This document shows positions 40,208 to 44,588 of a stretch of DNA of 64,000 nucleotides, piece by piece. Below the pieces are notes generated by a model, which saw nothing but the letters and a program-made list of their open reading frames with translations, was not told the origin of the DNA and searched no databases. A program made the translations under genes and the position numbers. The stretch comes from Natrinema salifodinae (GTDB taxonomy: Archaea > Halobacteriota > Halobacteria > Halobacteriales > Natrialbaceae): contig NZ_FOIS01000002.1 in NCBI RefSeq assembly GCF_900110455.1, forward strand, positions 1-64,000, written 5' to 3'. Every line of letters starts with the position of its first letter. The first letter of the stretch is position 1.

Positions 40208-40510
40208 TCACTCGACGCTTTCCGCTCGCCACTCGGCGAACGAGTCGAGGACGTCGCTCTCGTCGAAGCGCTCGATACAGGGAACGTCGTAGGGATGGAC
40301 CTCTCGCACGCGTGTGACGAGGTCGTCGTACGCCTCGTCGGTGGTCTTCGCGAGCAGGACCTCCTCGTCGTCGTGGTGGATCTCGCCGTCCCAGCGGTAG
40401 GTCGAGGTCGTCGCGAGCCGGTTGACGCAGGCGGCGAGTCGCTCCTCGACCAAGCGGTCAGCGAGCTCGTCGGCCGCTTCGGGCGGAGCCGTAATGTAGA
40501 CGGTCGGCAT
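40208..40510 (-). CDS. cutA: CutA1 divalent-cation tolerance protein
   Basis: 100 residues, the standard CutA1 length. MPTVYITAPPEAADELADRL, RLAACVNRL, YRWDGEIHHDDEEVLLAKT and EVHPYDVPCIERF are family signatures. CutA1 is a very stable ferredoxin-fold trimer resembling PII; its role in metal tolerance is disputed. A single gene. Confidence 0.94.
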   Translation of the reverse strand: MPTVYITAPPEAADELADRLVEERLAACVNRLATTSTYRWDGEIHHDDEEVLLAKTTDEAYDDLVTRVREVHPYDVPCIERFDESDVLDSFAEWRAESVE

Positions 40511-40628
40511 ACCTGCGGCTACGACCGAGTCGAGGAAAAGCGCACCGTCACGGTTCGAGTTCGGGCTCCGCCTCGGCTCGGCGGCCGCCCGCGACGGCGC
40601 AACGACGCGACGGGAGAAGCGGAGACGA

Positions 40629-40820
40629 TCAGCTATCGGGGCCGTCGACCGGATTGAACGTGCCGTTGATGTCCCACTCGTGGATGCAGTGCGGGTTGCC
40701 GACTCGCTTTTCGCCGTCCTCGCGGGCGATCTGCCAGGCCTCGAGGTCGTCGTCCCACGCTTCCGCTCGGTCGCACTCCTCGCAAACTCTCGCGGTCGGT
40801 TTTCGTACCTGTGCGCTCAT
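40629..40820 (-). CDS. Small haloarchaeal protein with CxxC
   Basis: 63 residues starting MSAQVRKPTARVCEECDRAE; one CxxC (14-17) and a later PHCIHEWDINGTFNPV. The Cys/His arrangement could bind one zinc. The C-terminal HEWDING segment looks conserved in kind, but I cannot name the family. The ATG at 40818-40820 is chosen over one two codons upstream. Divergent from the giant coiled-coil gene. Confidence 0.68.
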   Translation of the reverse strand: MSAQVRKPTARVCEECDRAEAWDDDLEAWQIAREDGEKRVGNPHCIHEWDINGTFNPVDGPDS

Positions 40821-40972
40821 TACCACACCGTGCGAACTCGACGCATATAACGGTATTCGTGTGCGGCAAGTGCTGCCCGCCGGTGACAGGTTCCGATCGG
40901 GGTTCCGGACTCGTTTTCACATCTGGTACTCGCGGGCGAAGTTCCAAGAGGGTGGCTTCGGTTGCCGGGGGC

Positions 40973-43900
40973 ATGCACTACGGTCTCGACATCGGACCGG
41001 AAGCGGTTCGGGCCGCCACCGACGCGGACGACGACCCGGCGATCGAGTCGCTCCCGCCAGTCGTGGCACCGGTCGACGACGCCGCGCTCGACGCGGCGGA
41101 CCTCTCGGGGGAGGGACGAACCGTCAACGGGGATGGAACGACGTACGCGGTCGGCGCGGACGCGAGAGCGGTCGCCGAGGTGAGCGACGAGGAGACGGCG
41201 TCGCTGTTCGAAAACGGCATCCTCCACGAGGACACGACGGCGTACGCCGCGCCGGCACTGGACGCGCTCATCGACGATATCGTCGACGATGCGACCGCCG
41301 AACGACTCTGCTACACGACGCCAGGCGCGCTCGTCGACGCGGCGGTGCCGACCGACGCGCACCGCGAGGCCGTCGAATCGGTCCTGGCCGACCGCGGGAT
41401 CGACGCGACGCCGATTAGCACCGGCTTCGCCGTCGTCTACGACCAACTCGCCGACGATAACTACACCGGGCTCGGGATCCGCCTCGGCGCGCAGACGAGC
41501 AGCGTCGCGCTCGCGTACTACGGCGTCCCGGCGATGGCCGTCTCGATCGCGAAGGGCCGCGATTGGGTCATCGAGCGCGCGGCCGGGGACACCGGTTACG
41601 CGCCCGAGCAGGTCGCCGGCGTGCTCGATGACTTCGTGCTCGATCCCGACGCGGCGGCAGGCGGCGTCGAGAGCGCGCTTGCACAGGCCTACGACGACCT
41701 GGTAGCCGAACTGATCGACGCGATCCGGACGGCGGCCGACGAGAGCGACGTCCAGCAGGGCCTGGCGGTCCCGATCGCGATCGCAGGCGCAGGTGCGATC
41801 GAGGGCGTCGAGTATCTGGTCGGCGGGCGGTTCGACGCCGCGGCCCTGCCGTTCTCGGTCCGGGGCGTGCGGCTCGCGGCCGATCCCGCCGAGAGCGCGG
41901 CCAGGGGTGCGCTCGCCGCGGCGCGGGACGACGTCGACGCCTACGAGGAGGTCATCTGGTCCGAGTCCGGCTCCGAGTCCGCGTTCGACTCCGACGGCGG
42001 CGGCAGCGCCGGCGATCGGAACCAGGCCGCGGCTGCCAATGCAGCCGCCGGGCTCGAGCGGACCGAACTCTCGTTCGACGACGCGACGGCCGAGGCGGCG
42101 GCCGATCGCGCCGACGACGCCATCGACCAGCTGTTCGACCGGCTCGCGAACCGCGACGAGGAGATCGAGGCCGTCCGCGAGGACCTCGAGCAGCTGTTCG
42201 ACGACCTCGAGTACGTCGAGGAGCGGACGGCCGCGGCCGAATCCGTCGACGCACTCGACGATCGCCTCGAGTCGGTCGCGGACGACCTGGCCGACCTCGA
42301 AGCCGAGAGCGAGACCCACGCGAGCGACGAGGCGGTCGACGCGCTCGACGATGACGTCGAGGCCCTTTCGGACGCGTTCGCGGAACTCGAGGCCGACGTC
42401 GACAACCTCGACGACGCACTCGAAGCGATCGAGACCACCGCGGCCGACGAACGAGCCGCCATCGACGAGCGCGTCGCCGGCCTGGCGACCGATCTCGACG
42501 CCGTCACCGAACGAGCGGACGCGGTCGACGAGCGGCTCGACGCCGTTCGAACCGCCCTCGACGAGTTCGAGGCGACCGCCGCGACCGAAGCGGCACTCGA
42601 GGAGGTGGACGAAACCGTCGCGGGCCTGATCGGCGAATGCGAGGCCCTCGAGGCGGACATCGAGCGGATCGAACCGCGCGTCGACGGGCTCGCCGGTCGG
42701 TTGGAAGAACTGAACACCCGGATCGACGGCGTCTCGGGCCGGCTCGAGGAGCGATCCGAACGGACCGACGCGCGGTTCGAGGACGTCGAGGAAGCGCTCG
42801 ACGAGGAGATCCGCGCCGTCGGCGACGACGTCGCGGCCGTCGACGACGCCGTCACGGCGGTCCGCGAGACGGTCGACGACCGCGCCGCGGCGCTCGAGTC
42901 CCGCCTCGACACCCTTCGGGACGGACTCGACGACCTCGACGCCGCGACGGCCGACGGTGAGCGCGTCGAGACGCTGGCGGACGACCTCGGAGCGCTCGAA
43001 TCGGCGCTCGAGGGGCTCGAGGAAACGGCAGCGGACGAGCAGCGCCTCGATTCCGTCGCGGACGACCAGGCGACCATCGAAACGACGCTCGGCGACCTCG
43101 ACGACGCGGTCGCCGAACTGTCGGACCGGTTGGACGGCCTCGCGGACCGCGCGGCAGACGCCGCAACGGTCGACGCGCTCGCGAGCGATCTCGAGGCGGT
43201 CGACGGCGACGTGGCCGCGCTCGAATCGGAATTGGAGGCGCTCGACGATGCGTTCGACCAGCGACTCGACGAAACGGTCGCCGATATCGAATCCCGGATC
43301 GACGAGGGGACGGACGCGCTCGAGGCGGAGGTCGCCGCGCTCGAGACGACGATCGAACGGCTCGAGGACAAGACGGTCGACACCGACGAGTTCGCAACGG
43401 TGCGCGAATCGCTCGAGGACACCCGCGAGGGGGTCGATGCGGTGGATTCGGAGGTCGACGACGTCGCGATGGACGTCGCGGCCGTCGCGGACCGGGTGGA
43501 CGGCGTCGAGACCGACCTCGCGGACCGGATCGACGACGTTCGCACGGCGATCGACGACCAGGTCGGCGAGGTTCGGACCGACGTCGACGAGCGGATCAAC
43601 GGCGTCCGAACGGACCTCGACGAGGAAGTCGGCGACGTTCGGACGGATGTCGACGCCCGAATCGATGACGTCCGGACGGCACTCGACGACGCTGCCGCGG
43701 AACTCGAGGCCGAGATCGAGCGCGAAACCGACTCGCTCGCCGACTCCCTTACCGATCTGGCCGATCGCGTCGACGACACCGAGCGACGAGTGGACGACCA
43801 GGCCGACCGCGTCGACGAGACCGCGGGAACGCTCGCGGCTGTCGAAACCACGGTCGAAGACGTCAGCAGCGACCTCGAGGCGCTCGCGGACCGGGTCGAC

Positions 43901-44362
43901 GACCTCGACGACGCGGCGAGTACCGAGACCGTCGCCGCGATCGAGGACGACGTCGCGGCCGTCAACGATCGCCTCGAGTCGCTTCGCGCAGCCCACGACG
44001 ATTTGGTCGGGACCGTCGAGTCGGTCCCCGACGAATCGACCGTCGAGTCGCTCGACGATCGCCTTGCGGCGGTCAGCGAGCGGCTCTCGGACGTCGAAGG
44101 TCAGCTCGAAACGGTCGATGAGCGGTTCGGCGGGGACGAGGAATGGGTCGCGGAAATCGACGCGCTCCGGACCGAACTCGAAGCCGTTCGCGCCGACGCG
44201 ACGACCGCATCCGCCCTCCCGTCCGCGGCCGTCGCCGGCGGCGGCGGTGCGGGTATCGTCGCCGGCGGCGTCACCGCGCTGGCCGGCGAGGCGATGATCG
44301 GCGCCGGCGCGGCCGTCGCCGGCCTGGTCCTGCTCGCCGTCGCGGTGTCGCTCGCCGAGTAG
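40973..44362 (+). CDS. Giant actin/MreB-fold-like protein with long coiled coil and C-terminal membrane anchor
   Basis: 1129 residues. The first ~325 look like an actin/Hsp70-superfamily ATPase: MHYGLDIGPEAVRAA (phosphate-1, Asp6), STGFAVVYDQLADD (149-162, connect-1-like), GLGIRLGAQTSSVALAYYG (166-184, phosphate-2), and VPIAIAGAGAIEGVEYL (267-282, adenosine motif). Arg170 stands where phosphate-2 usually has Asp. After a Ser/Gly/Ala linker (330-365) come about 700 residues of acidic heptad coiled coil, including five 11-residue repeats (856-910). The last ~45 residues are Gly/Ala-rich and hydrophobic, likely membrane-inserted. The ATG at 40973 is chosen because the actin-like fold begins there; the frame is open upstream. 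A cytoskeletal or chromosome/membrane tether role is inferred. Confidence 0.78.
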   Translation: MHYGLDIGPEAVRAATDADDDPAIESLPPVVAPVDDAALDAADLSGEGRTVNGDGTTYAVGADARAVAEVSDEETASLFENGILHEDTTAYAAPALDALIDDIVDDATAERLCYTTPGALVDAAVPTDAHREAVESVLADRGIDATPISTGFAVVYDQLADDNYTGLGIRLGAQTSSVALAYYGVPAMAVSIAKGRDWVIERAAGDTGYAPEQVAGVLDDFVLDPDAAAGGVESALAQAYDDLVAELIDAIRTAADESDVQQGLAVPIAIAGAGAIEGVEYLVGGRFDAAALPFSVRGVRLAADPAESAARGALAAARDDVDAYEEVIWSESGSESAFDSDGGGSAGDRNQAAAANAAAGLERTELSFDDATAEAAADRADDAIDQLFDRLANRDEEIEAVREDLEQLFDDLEYVEERTAAAESVDALDDRLESVADDLADLEAESETHASDEAVDALDDDVEALSDAFAELEADVDNLDDALEAIETTAADERAAIDERVAGLATDLDAVTERADAVDERLDAVRTALDEFEATAATEAALEEVDETVAGLIGECEALEADIERIEPRVDGLAGRLEELNTRIDGVSGRLEERSERTDARFEDVEEALDEEIRAVGDDVAAVDDAVTAVRETVDDRAAALESRLDTLRDGLDDLDAATADGERVETLADDLGALESALEGLEETAADEQRLDSVADDQATIETTLGDLDDAVAELSDRLDGLADRAADAATVDALASDLEAVDGDVAALESELEALDDAFDQRLDETVADIESRIDEGTDALEAEVAALETTIERLEDKTVDTDEFATVRESLEDTREGVDAVDSEVDDVAMDVAAVADRVDGVETDLADRIDDVRTAIDDQVGEVRTDVDERINGVRTDLDEEVGDVRTDVDARIDDVRTALDDAAAELEAEIERETDSLADSLTDLADRVDDTERRVDDQADRVDETAGTLAAVETTVEDVSSDLEALADRVDDLDDAASTETVAAIEDDVAAVNDRLESLRAAHDDLVGTVESVPDESTVESLDDRLAAVSERLSDVEGQLETVDERFGGDEEWVAEIDALRTELEAVRADATTASALPSAAVAGGGGAGIVAGGVTALAGEAMIGAGAAVAGLVLLAVAVSLAE
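43538..43702 (+). repeat. Five tandem 33-bp (11-residue) repeats
   Basis: Each unit encodes VRT-x-hydrophobic-D-x-x-hydrophobic-x-x (for example VRTDVDERING, VRTDLDEEVGD, VRTDVDARIDD); the fifth unit is degenerate. Eleven-residue periodicity indicates a hendecad, near-straight coiled coil embedded in heptads. Confidence 0.85.
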
Positions 44363-44456: not shown

Positions 44457-44588
44457 CTAGTCCCGAACCAACTCGACGTTTCGCATCTCGCCCCCGCACT
44501 GCCGGCAGGTACTGACGAGCGCGCCGCTGACCGTCTCCCGCCGGCCACACTGGACGCACTCGTACTCGCGACGGTCGTCGTCTGCCAT
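44457..44588 (-). CDS. Tiny zinc-ribbon (rubrerythrin-like domain) protein
   Basis: 43 residues: MADDDRREYECVQCGRRETV, then STCRQCGGEMRNVELVRD. Two CxxC pairs separated by 13 residues form a complete zinc ribbon. Very small proteins of this kind are abundant in haloarchaea; function unknown. The ATG lies at 44586-44588 and an AT-rich stretch upstream (about 44589-44625) can hold its promoter. Convergent with the giant coiled-coil gene. Confidence 0.8.
   Translation of the reverse strand: MADDDRREYECVQCGRRETVSGALVSTCRQCGGEMRNVELVRD

Follow-up and report, generated by a model that had tools for sequence, protein, structure and literature searches.

What does an actin-like domain do at the head of a long coiled coil that ends in a hydrophobic segment? 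The question is raised by a gene of the haloarchaeon Natrinema salifodinae that lies in the 64,000-nucleotide stretch analysed here (the window, i.e. positions 1 to 64,000 of contig NZ_FOIS01000002.1) and encodes, at 40973..44362 on the forward strand (+), a protein of 1129 amino acids (aa) made up of an actin domain, an acidic stalk and a hydrophobic anchor. The open frame continues upstream without a stop to a GTG at 40811; we place the start at the ATG just before the GLDIG motif because the orthologues begin there. Computational analysis of its fold, ancestry, architecture, distribution and catalytic residues shows that the gene belongs to a second class of volactins. What is new here is this class, with its stalk and anchor, while the family of the actin domain was already known. 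Below we refer to proteins of this architecture as long forms.

The actin domain is a volactin

The N-terminal domain (residues 1-323, 40973..41941, +) is matched by the Pfam model PF25216 (Volactin), which spans residues 1-317 over the whole length of the model (1-321) with an E value of 7.9e-129. The score of the window protein is 430 bits against a cut-off of 35, and even the distant long forms score between 99.6 and 261 bits. An AlphaFold2 model of residues 1-345, built with 46 related sequences, has the two-lobed actin fold (mean predicted local distance difference test score, pLDDT, 87.0; predicted template modelling score, pTM, 0.87). Only residues 325-345 of the model fall below a pLDDT of 50, and the start of the low-complexity linker that follows the domain (residues 324-375, 41942..42097, +; pLDDT about 33-55 over 321-345) is predicted to be disordered.

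Fold comparisons lead to the same family of structures. The top Foldseek matches of the actin-domain model are MamK and BeeR (E 1.1e-11), with FtsA and PilM also among the matches. A second structural aligner, which covered model residues 1-325, gave a Z score of 26.7 over 291 residues for MamK, 25.5 for BeeR, about 25 for MreB, about 24 for actin and 23.8 for crenactin. The model thus gives good support to an actin fold of residues 1-323, as had been proposed in a first-pass annotation made from the sequence alone. The same annotation also considered that the protein could be a new cytoskeletal type, and this is not supported, because the actin domain belongs to the known volactin family and is a paralogue of the canonical volactin encoded in the same genome.

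A class separate from canonical volactin

There are two volactin genes in the N. salifodinae genome, the long form and a canonical one, located on another contig (open frame of 364 aa), and a canonical short volactin is also present in the other long-form genomes checked. In a phylogenetic tree 60 long and 71 short volactins are split by one branch, with a support of 1.0 in FastTree (all 131 sequences) and 99.7/100 in IQ-TREE (a subset); the trees contain no outgroup, i.e. the long/short split is unrooted. The long form is a class separate from canonical volactin and not an orthologue of VolA, and one duplication presumably lies at the base of the split. The two classes differ in the degree of divergence: over the same 136 genome pairs the mean identity is 57.9% for the long heads and 96.8% for the short volactins, while the long and the short domain of one genome share 33.6% identity.

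We sampled 391 haloarchaeal genomes of good quality. Long forms (open reading frames, ORFs, of 649-1564 aa) were found in at least 75 of the 102 Natrialbaceae genomes listed with a match, the genera including Natrinema, Natronorubrum, Haloterrigena, Natrialba, Halopiger and others. These genome counts are lower bounds, as few candidates were scored per genome. A restriction of the long form to Natrialbaceae was considered and rejected, since further genomes gave long forms in three other families. They are rare there, with at least 3 genomes of the sample in family f7 and at least 2 in f10, to which at least one in f3 is added, a 77%-complete genome (G402).

We read 47 long-form proteins, 41 from Natrialbaceae (the window protein included) and 6 from other families. 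All 47 have the head, the acidic coiled coil and the hydrophobic C-terminus, and the stalk, with 170-858 residues, varies fivefold in length. The spacer length thus drifts, while both ends are conserved.

Is the long form maintained by selection? In eight long-form pairs the ratio of nonsynonymous to synonymous substitution rates (dN/dS) was 0.16-0.52 for the head, 0.26-0.65 for the stalk and 0.07-0.86 for the short tail, with the weakest constraint on the stalk in most pairs. The long form is under purifying selection. These values bear on the possibility that we deal with a functionless paralogue that is decaying or survives as a relic of particular lineages. Its loss within Natrialbaceae is patchy, in one genome (G368) only a remnant with a short coil and the tail but no actin domain is left at the syntenic site beside a major facilitator superfamily (MFS) gene (L197:8488-8580), and in another (G241) nothing of the gene is left between pckA and the MFS gene. 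Nevertheless, dN/dS is below 1 in 8 out of 8 pairs, the architecture is retained across four families in 47 divergent proteins, and the clade is fully supported against canonical volactin, so that we disfavour this explanation and regard it as very improbable.

A few observations on volactin genes in general should be added. The volactin match is split into N- and C-terminal pieces that overlap in a frameshift-like manner in G106 (C4:12424-13352), and pieces about 9-11 kb apart, possibly reflecting insertions, occur in G356 (C54:57721-67544) and G416 (C1:2965807-2977969). Extra, near-identical copies of the canonical short volactin are located on other contigs, possibly plasmids, in G106, G211 and G269 (family f3, genus g33).

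Loss of the catalytic glutamate

The first-pass annotation had listed four nucleotide-binding motifs. They are indeed present and follow each other in the proper order, but two of them have degenerated, and connect-1 is without its glutamate. The phosphate-1 loop GLDIGP (residues 4-9, 40982..40999, +) retains Asp6 and Gly8, and Thr9 of volactin is replaced by Pro. In the connect-1 region, TPISTGFAVVYDQ (residues 146-158, 41408..41446, +), Thr150 stands in the place of the catalytic Glu of volactin and MamK. The phosphate-2-like loop, GLGIRLGAQTSSV (residues 166-178, 41468..41506, +), reads GAQTS where volactin has GAGMT, and the adenosine-motif region, PIAIAGAGAIEGVEYL (residues 267-282, 41771..41818, +), retains Gly272 and Gly278. 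In terms of the invariant canonical motifs, the window protein thus has GPEA for GTMN and STG for NEG, in addition to the altered phosphate-2 loop.

The canonical volactins are uniform in these positions: Asp6, Gly8, Thr9, Glu152, Gly174, Ala175, Gly176, Thr178, Gly275 and Gly276 are invariant in 71 out of 71 sequences. According to the HMMER alignment, volactin Glu152 corresponds to MamK Glu143, and volactin Ser172 to MamK Asp161; the equivalent of the latter is absent from canonical volactin altogether (Ser in 71/71). The connect-1 glutamate is found in 71/71 canonical volactins versus 0/60 long-form domains, where it is replaced by K/R (40 occurrences), T (11), P (3), S (3), Q (2) or A (1). 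Asp6 of phosphate-1 is present in 59 out of 60 long forms, and Thr9 is changed to Pro in 26 out of 54 Natrialbaceae sequences. The connect-1 Glu or Gln that, next to the phosphate-1 Asp, is expected of an actin-like ATPase is thus lacking in all long forms but the two with Gln. The GAG of phosphate-2 is mostly degraded, but its glycines are intact in the proteins of family f7, for which reason the connect-1 glutamate was probably lost first. Some long forms (L087, L088 and L099) have in addition an eroded phosphate-1 loop (GIALS, GLDFA and GLDFC in residues 4-10), which suggests that nucleotide handling is further reduced in these lineages.

ATPase activity and filament dynamics are abolished when E143 or the conserved D161 is mutated, in MamK as well as in other actins (PMC5059902). 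ATP hydrolysis is probably impaired in the long-form class. Nucleotide binding may persist, as Asp6 of phosphate-1 and the adenosine glycines are retained.

Does the long form polymerise by itself? The first-pass annotation had supposed a membrane-tethered filament or scaffold, and a filament role is now doubtful because the class has lost the catalytic residue in 60/60 sequences. An autonomous membrane-bound polymer, in which the coils bundle the filament or space it from the membrane to form a cortical scaffold, deserves to be weighed all the same. The actin fold is intact and nearest to the filament formers MamK, BeeR and MreB, the phosphate-1 Asp is retained, and polymerisation can outlast the loss of hydrolysis, as in the stabilised filaments of MamK D161A (PMC5059902). 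On the other hand, besides the universal loss of the connect-1 glutamate, the phosphate-1 and phosphate-2 loops are degraded in many long forms, and some have lost the Gly or Asp of phosphate-1. The divergence described above (57.9% versus 96.8% identity) would also be unusual for a self-polymerising core protein. Altogether we find an autonomous polymer unlikely, yet still a serious candidate.

The coiled-coil stalk

The stalk (residues 376-1070, 42098..44182, +) is acidic and almost free of proline: 2 prolines occur in 695 residues, D+E amounts to about 34% and Ala to 16.5%. Its hydrophobic residues recur with a 3.5-residue period whose strength is 1.155, as compared to 0.185 +/- 0.036 in shuffled sequences (n=500, maximum 0.305); there is no such excess in the actin domain (0.186 versus 0.190 shuffled). 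Helices were modelled over residues 1001-1079. The long acidic heptads of the first-pass annotation are thus a genuine coiled coil, though not a purely heptad one, since hendecads are mixed in and the 11/3 period dominates in windows starting at about 838-882. As one continuous helix (0.15 nm per residue) the stalk would be ~100 nm long.

Generic coiled-coil models of Pfam and NCBIfam (baculovirus PEP, SMC, Rad50, SpiroCoCo) also match the stalk, and we rejected these matches as compositional. The abundance of SMC and Rad50 model matches, together with the length and acidity of the stalk in all members, could be taken to mean that the coil is the working part, i.e. that the protein is SMC/Rad50-like or intermediate-filament-like and carries the actin-like head incidentally. 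However, SMC_prok_B scores only 95 bits against a cut-off of 567 and Rad50 76 against 700, in both cases on the stalk portion only, and the ABC ATPase domain is absent. Moreover, in most pairs no region is under weaker constraint than the stalk, whose length varies between 170 and 858 residues with the fold of the head retained, so we consider this possibility hardly credible.

The probable C-terminal anchor

The chain ends in a Gly-rich hydrophobic segment with the consensus AGGGGAGVVAGG (residues 1087-1104, 44231..44284, +; conserved in the tail alignment), followed by a predicted transmembrane helix (residues 1107-1128, 44291..44356, +). The highest 19-residue hydropathy of the tail is 2.42. 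In the AlphaFold2 model of the tail the block of helix 1107-1128 has pLDDT values of 83-91, and a short helix at 1093-1104 is of low confidence. An alignment of the C-terminal 52 residues has the invariant positions Gly12, Ala16, Gly17, Val19, Gly21, Gly33 and Gly40. Gly-rich and hydrophobic, as first described, this end is likely to be a membrane anchor, and its hydropathy suggests that it inserts into the membrane. A hydrophobic helix at the chain end, with a hydrophobic C-terminus in 47/47 proteins, is the arrangement expected of a tail-anchored membrane protein.

Do the head and the tail also occur separately? Homologues that keep the rest of the protein without the N-terminal domain would have spoken against the first-pass description. 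Over 61 genomes a tail-only profile gave 38 matches, 35 in long-form ORFs, one in the remnant of G368 and two marginal ones, and there was no intact gene with the tail but without the actin head among them. Head and tail thus travel together, as the tail matches are almost confined to long-form ORFs.

Gene neighbourhood

In Natrialbaceae the long form frequently lies in a syntenic region that also holds cutA-rpl11-rpl1-rpl10, pckA and an MFS gene. We found no common neighbour between this locus and the unlinked long forms, and therefore the neighbourhood is uninformative on function and was rejected as a guide to it.

Further details of the locus are as follows. The pckA gene (ATP-type phosphoenolpyruvate carboxykinase), which in most Natrialbaceae relatives lies divergently between cutA and the long form, is absent from the window at 40510-40973. 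Just downstream of the long form, a convergent gene (44457-44588, -) encodes a zinc-ribbon-like protein of 43 aa in which two CxxC pairs occur (ECVQCG...STCRQCG), and antisense traces suggest that it is conserved in relatives. In L088 the gene of a PRC-barrel protein is located directly downstream of the long form. Proteins of the PRC-barrel type play a part in haloarchaeal division.

A possible membrane tether for volactin filaments

What could such a protein do? We tentatively favour the view that the second volactin class is a tail-anchored, probably hydrolysis-deficient paralogue (a 'tethered pseudo-volactin') by which filaments of volactin, or related ones, are connected with the membrane. 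The C-terminal helix would hold the protein on the inner membrane face, and the stalk, probably oligomeric, would keep the actin domain up to ~100 nm away from it. The actin domain would bind the end or the side of dynamic actin-like filaments, for which the canonical volactin of the same cell is the most likely source. Without ATP hydrolysis of its own the long form could act as a stable cap, anchor or nucleator, and volactin cables would thereby be coupled to the membrane, as FtsA couples a filament. A tether or cap role suits the protein because it combines a volactin-type head, probably deficient in hydrolysis, with a long stiff spacer and a membrane tail. Volactin HVO_2015 forms dynamic filaments in Haloferax cells, and it is the filament tips that are fixed to the membrane, the filaments not being laid along it (PMC10869688). 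Since canonical volactin itself carries no anchor, this mode of attachment supports the tether. So does the reported formation of heteropolymers by the paralogous actins MamK and Mad28 (PMC12748827). Filament binding and membrane anchoring by the long form are both inferred.

Several points weigh against this role. Haloferax volactin is tip-anchored, and no long form is known from Haloferax; the long form thus cannot be a universal anchor. It is also dispensable, as about a quarter of the Natrialbaceae genomes do without it. Co-occurrence with canonical volactin is uninformative because the latter is nearly universal in Natrialbaceae. With only about 34% identity between the long and short domains of one genome, shared filament contacts are uncertain. 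One lost residue need not halt dynamics, since canonical volactin lacks the D161 equivalent and is dynamic nevertheless. Finally, the neighbouring genes give no functional hint.

Another solution would be an adaptor or sensor like FtsA, PilM or EutJ that forms no filaments. Its actin domain would be a ligand-binding module and recruit a non-actin partner, such as the division, envelope or chromosome machinery, to the membrane, with the stalk as a spacer. FtsA and PilM are among the fold-search matches, an FtsA profile (7q6f) gives a weak match to the window protein (E 0.018, C-terminal part only), the catalytic site is degenerate, and in one genome the PRC-barrel gene lies just downstream. However, unlinked loci share no conserved neighbour, and the studied member of the volactin family forms filaments, hence we think an adaptor of this kind rather improbable.

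If the tether is accepted, the long form is a candidate membrane anchor for volactin in genera such as Natrinema. In a broader sense, and with somewhat greater reserve, the long forms might be seen as an undescribed archaeal actin-related class, catalytically impaired and with coil and anchor fused, whose members are built-in membrane tethers or caps for actin cables. The fivefold variation of the stalk between conserved ends is a natural test of the importance of spacer length in a cytoskeletal tether.

Comparison with known systems

It is instructive to compare the long form with other actin-like proteins. The closest is volactin itself (VolA, HVO_2015, PF25216; Haloferax volcanii and other haloarchaea), with which it shares the ~320-residue domain and the motif order, and which forms the sister clade. 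Canonical volactin is only about 340-375 aa long, has a short acidic tail without stalk or anchor, and keeps GTMN, NEG and GAGMT invariant; the long form has ~800 additional residues and no glutamate at the NEG position, and its rate of evolution is much higher. MamK, BeeR and MreB provide the nearest solved folds (Z 26.7, 25.5 and about 25, respectively), but MamK retains its catalytic Glu143 and Asp161, unlike the long form. To our knowledge, none of the three is fused to a coiled-coil stalk. FtsA and PilM are similar in that they are actin-fold proteins at the membrane and not classic ATPase polymers, and FtsA has a C-terminal membrane-targeting helix. They differ in having no long coiled-coil spacer, and their sequences do not appear close (profile match of E 0.018 for FtsA). 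We know of no other actin family in which an actin domain is joined in this way to a long coiled coil and on to a membrane anchor.

Salactin (VNG0153C, Halobacterium salinarum) is another haloarchaeal actin homologue, with a MreB/MamK-like fold; in its description the N-terminal tail is charged and disordered, and neither a coiled coil nor an anchor is mentioned (PMC10746226). As noted at first sight, neither volactin nor salactin has been described with the present architecture: the volactin and salactin literature searched, to which preprints and most subscription papers do not belong, contains no description of a coiled-coil or membrane-anchored volactin. In deep-branching magnetotactic bacteria two actin paralogues, MamK and Mad28, which are reported to form heteropolymers, organise intracellular structures together with coiled-coil proteins (PMC12748827). 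The coiled coils of the Mad system are separate proteins, whereas the long form unites coil, actin domain and anchor in one chain. Among eukaryotic actin-related proteins, a paralogue loses its activity and turns into a filament regulator. If the proposed role is true, the long form would be an archaeal parallel to these proteins, with the membrane link in the same chain.

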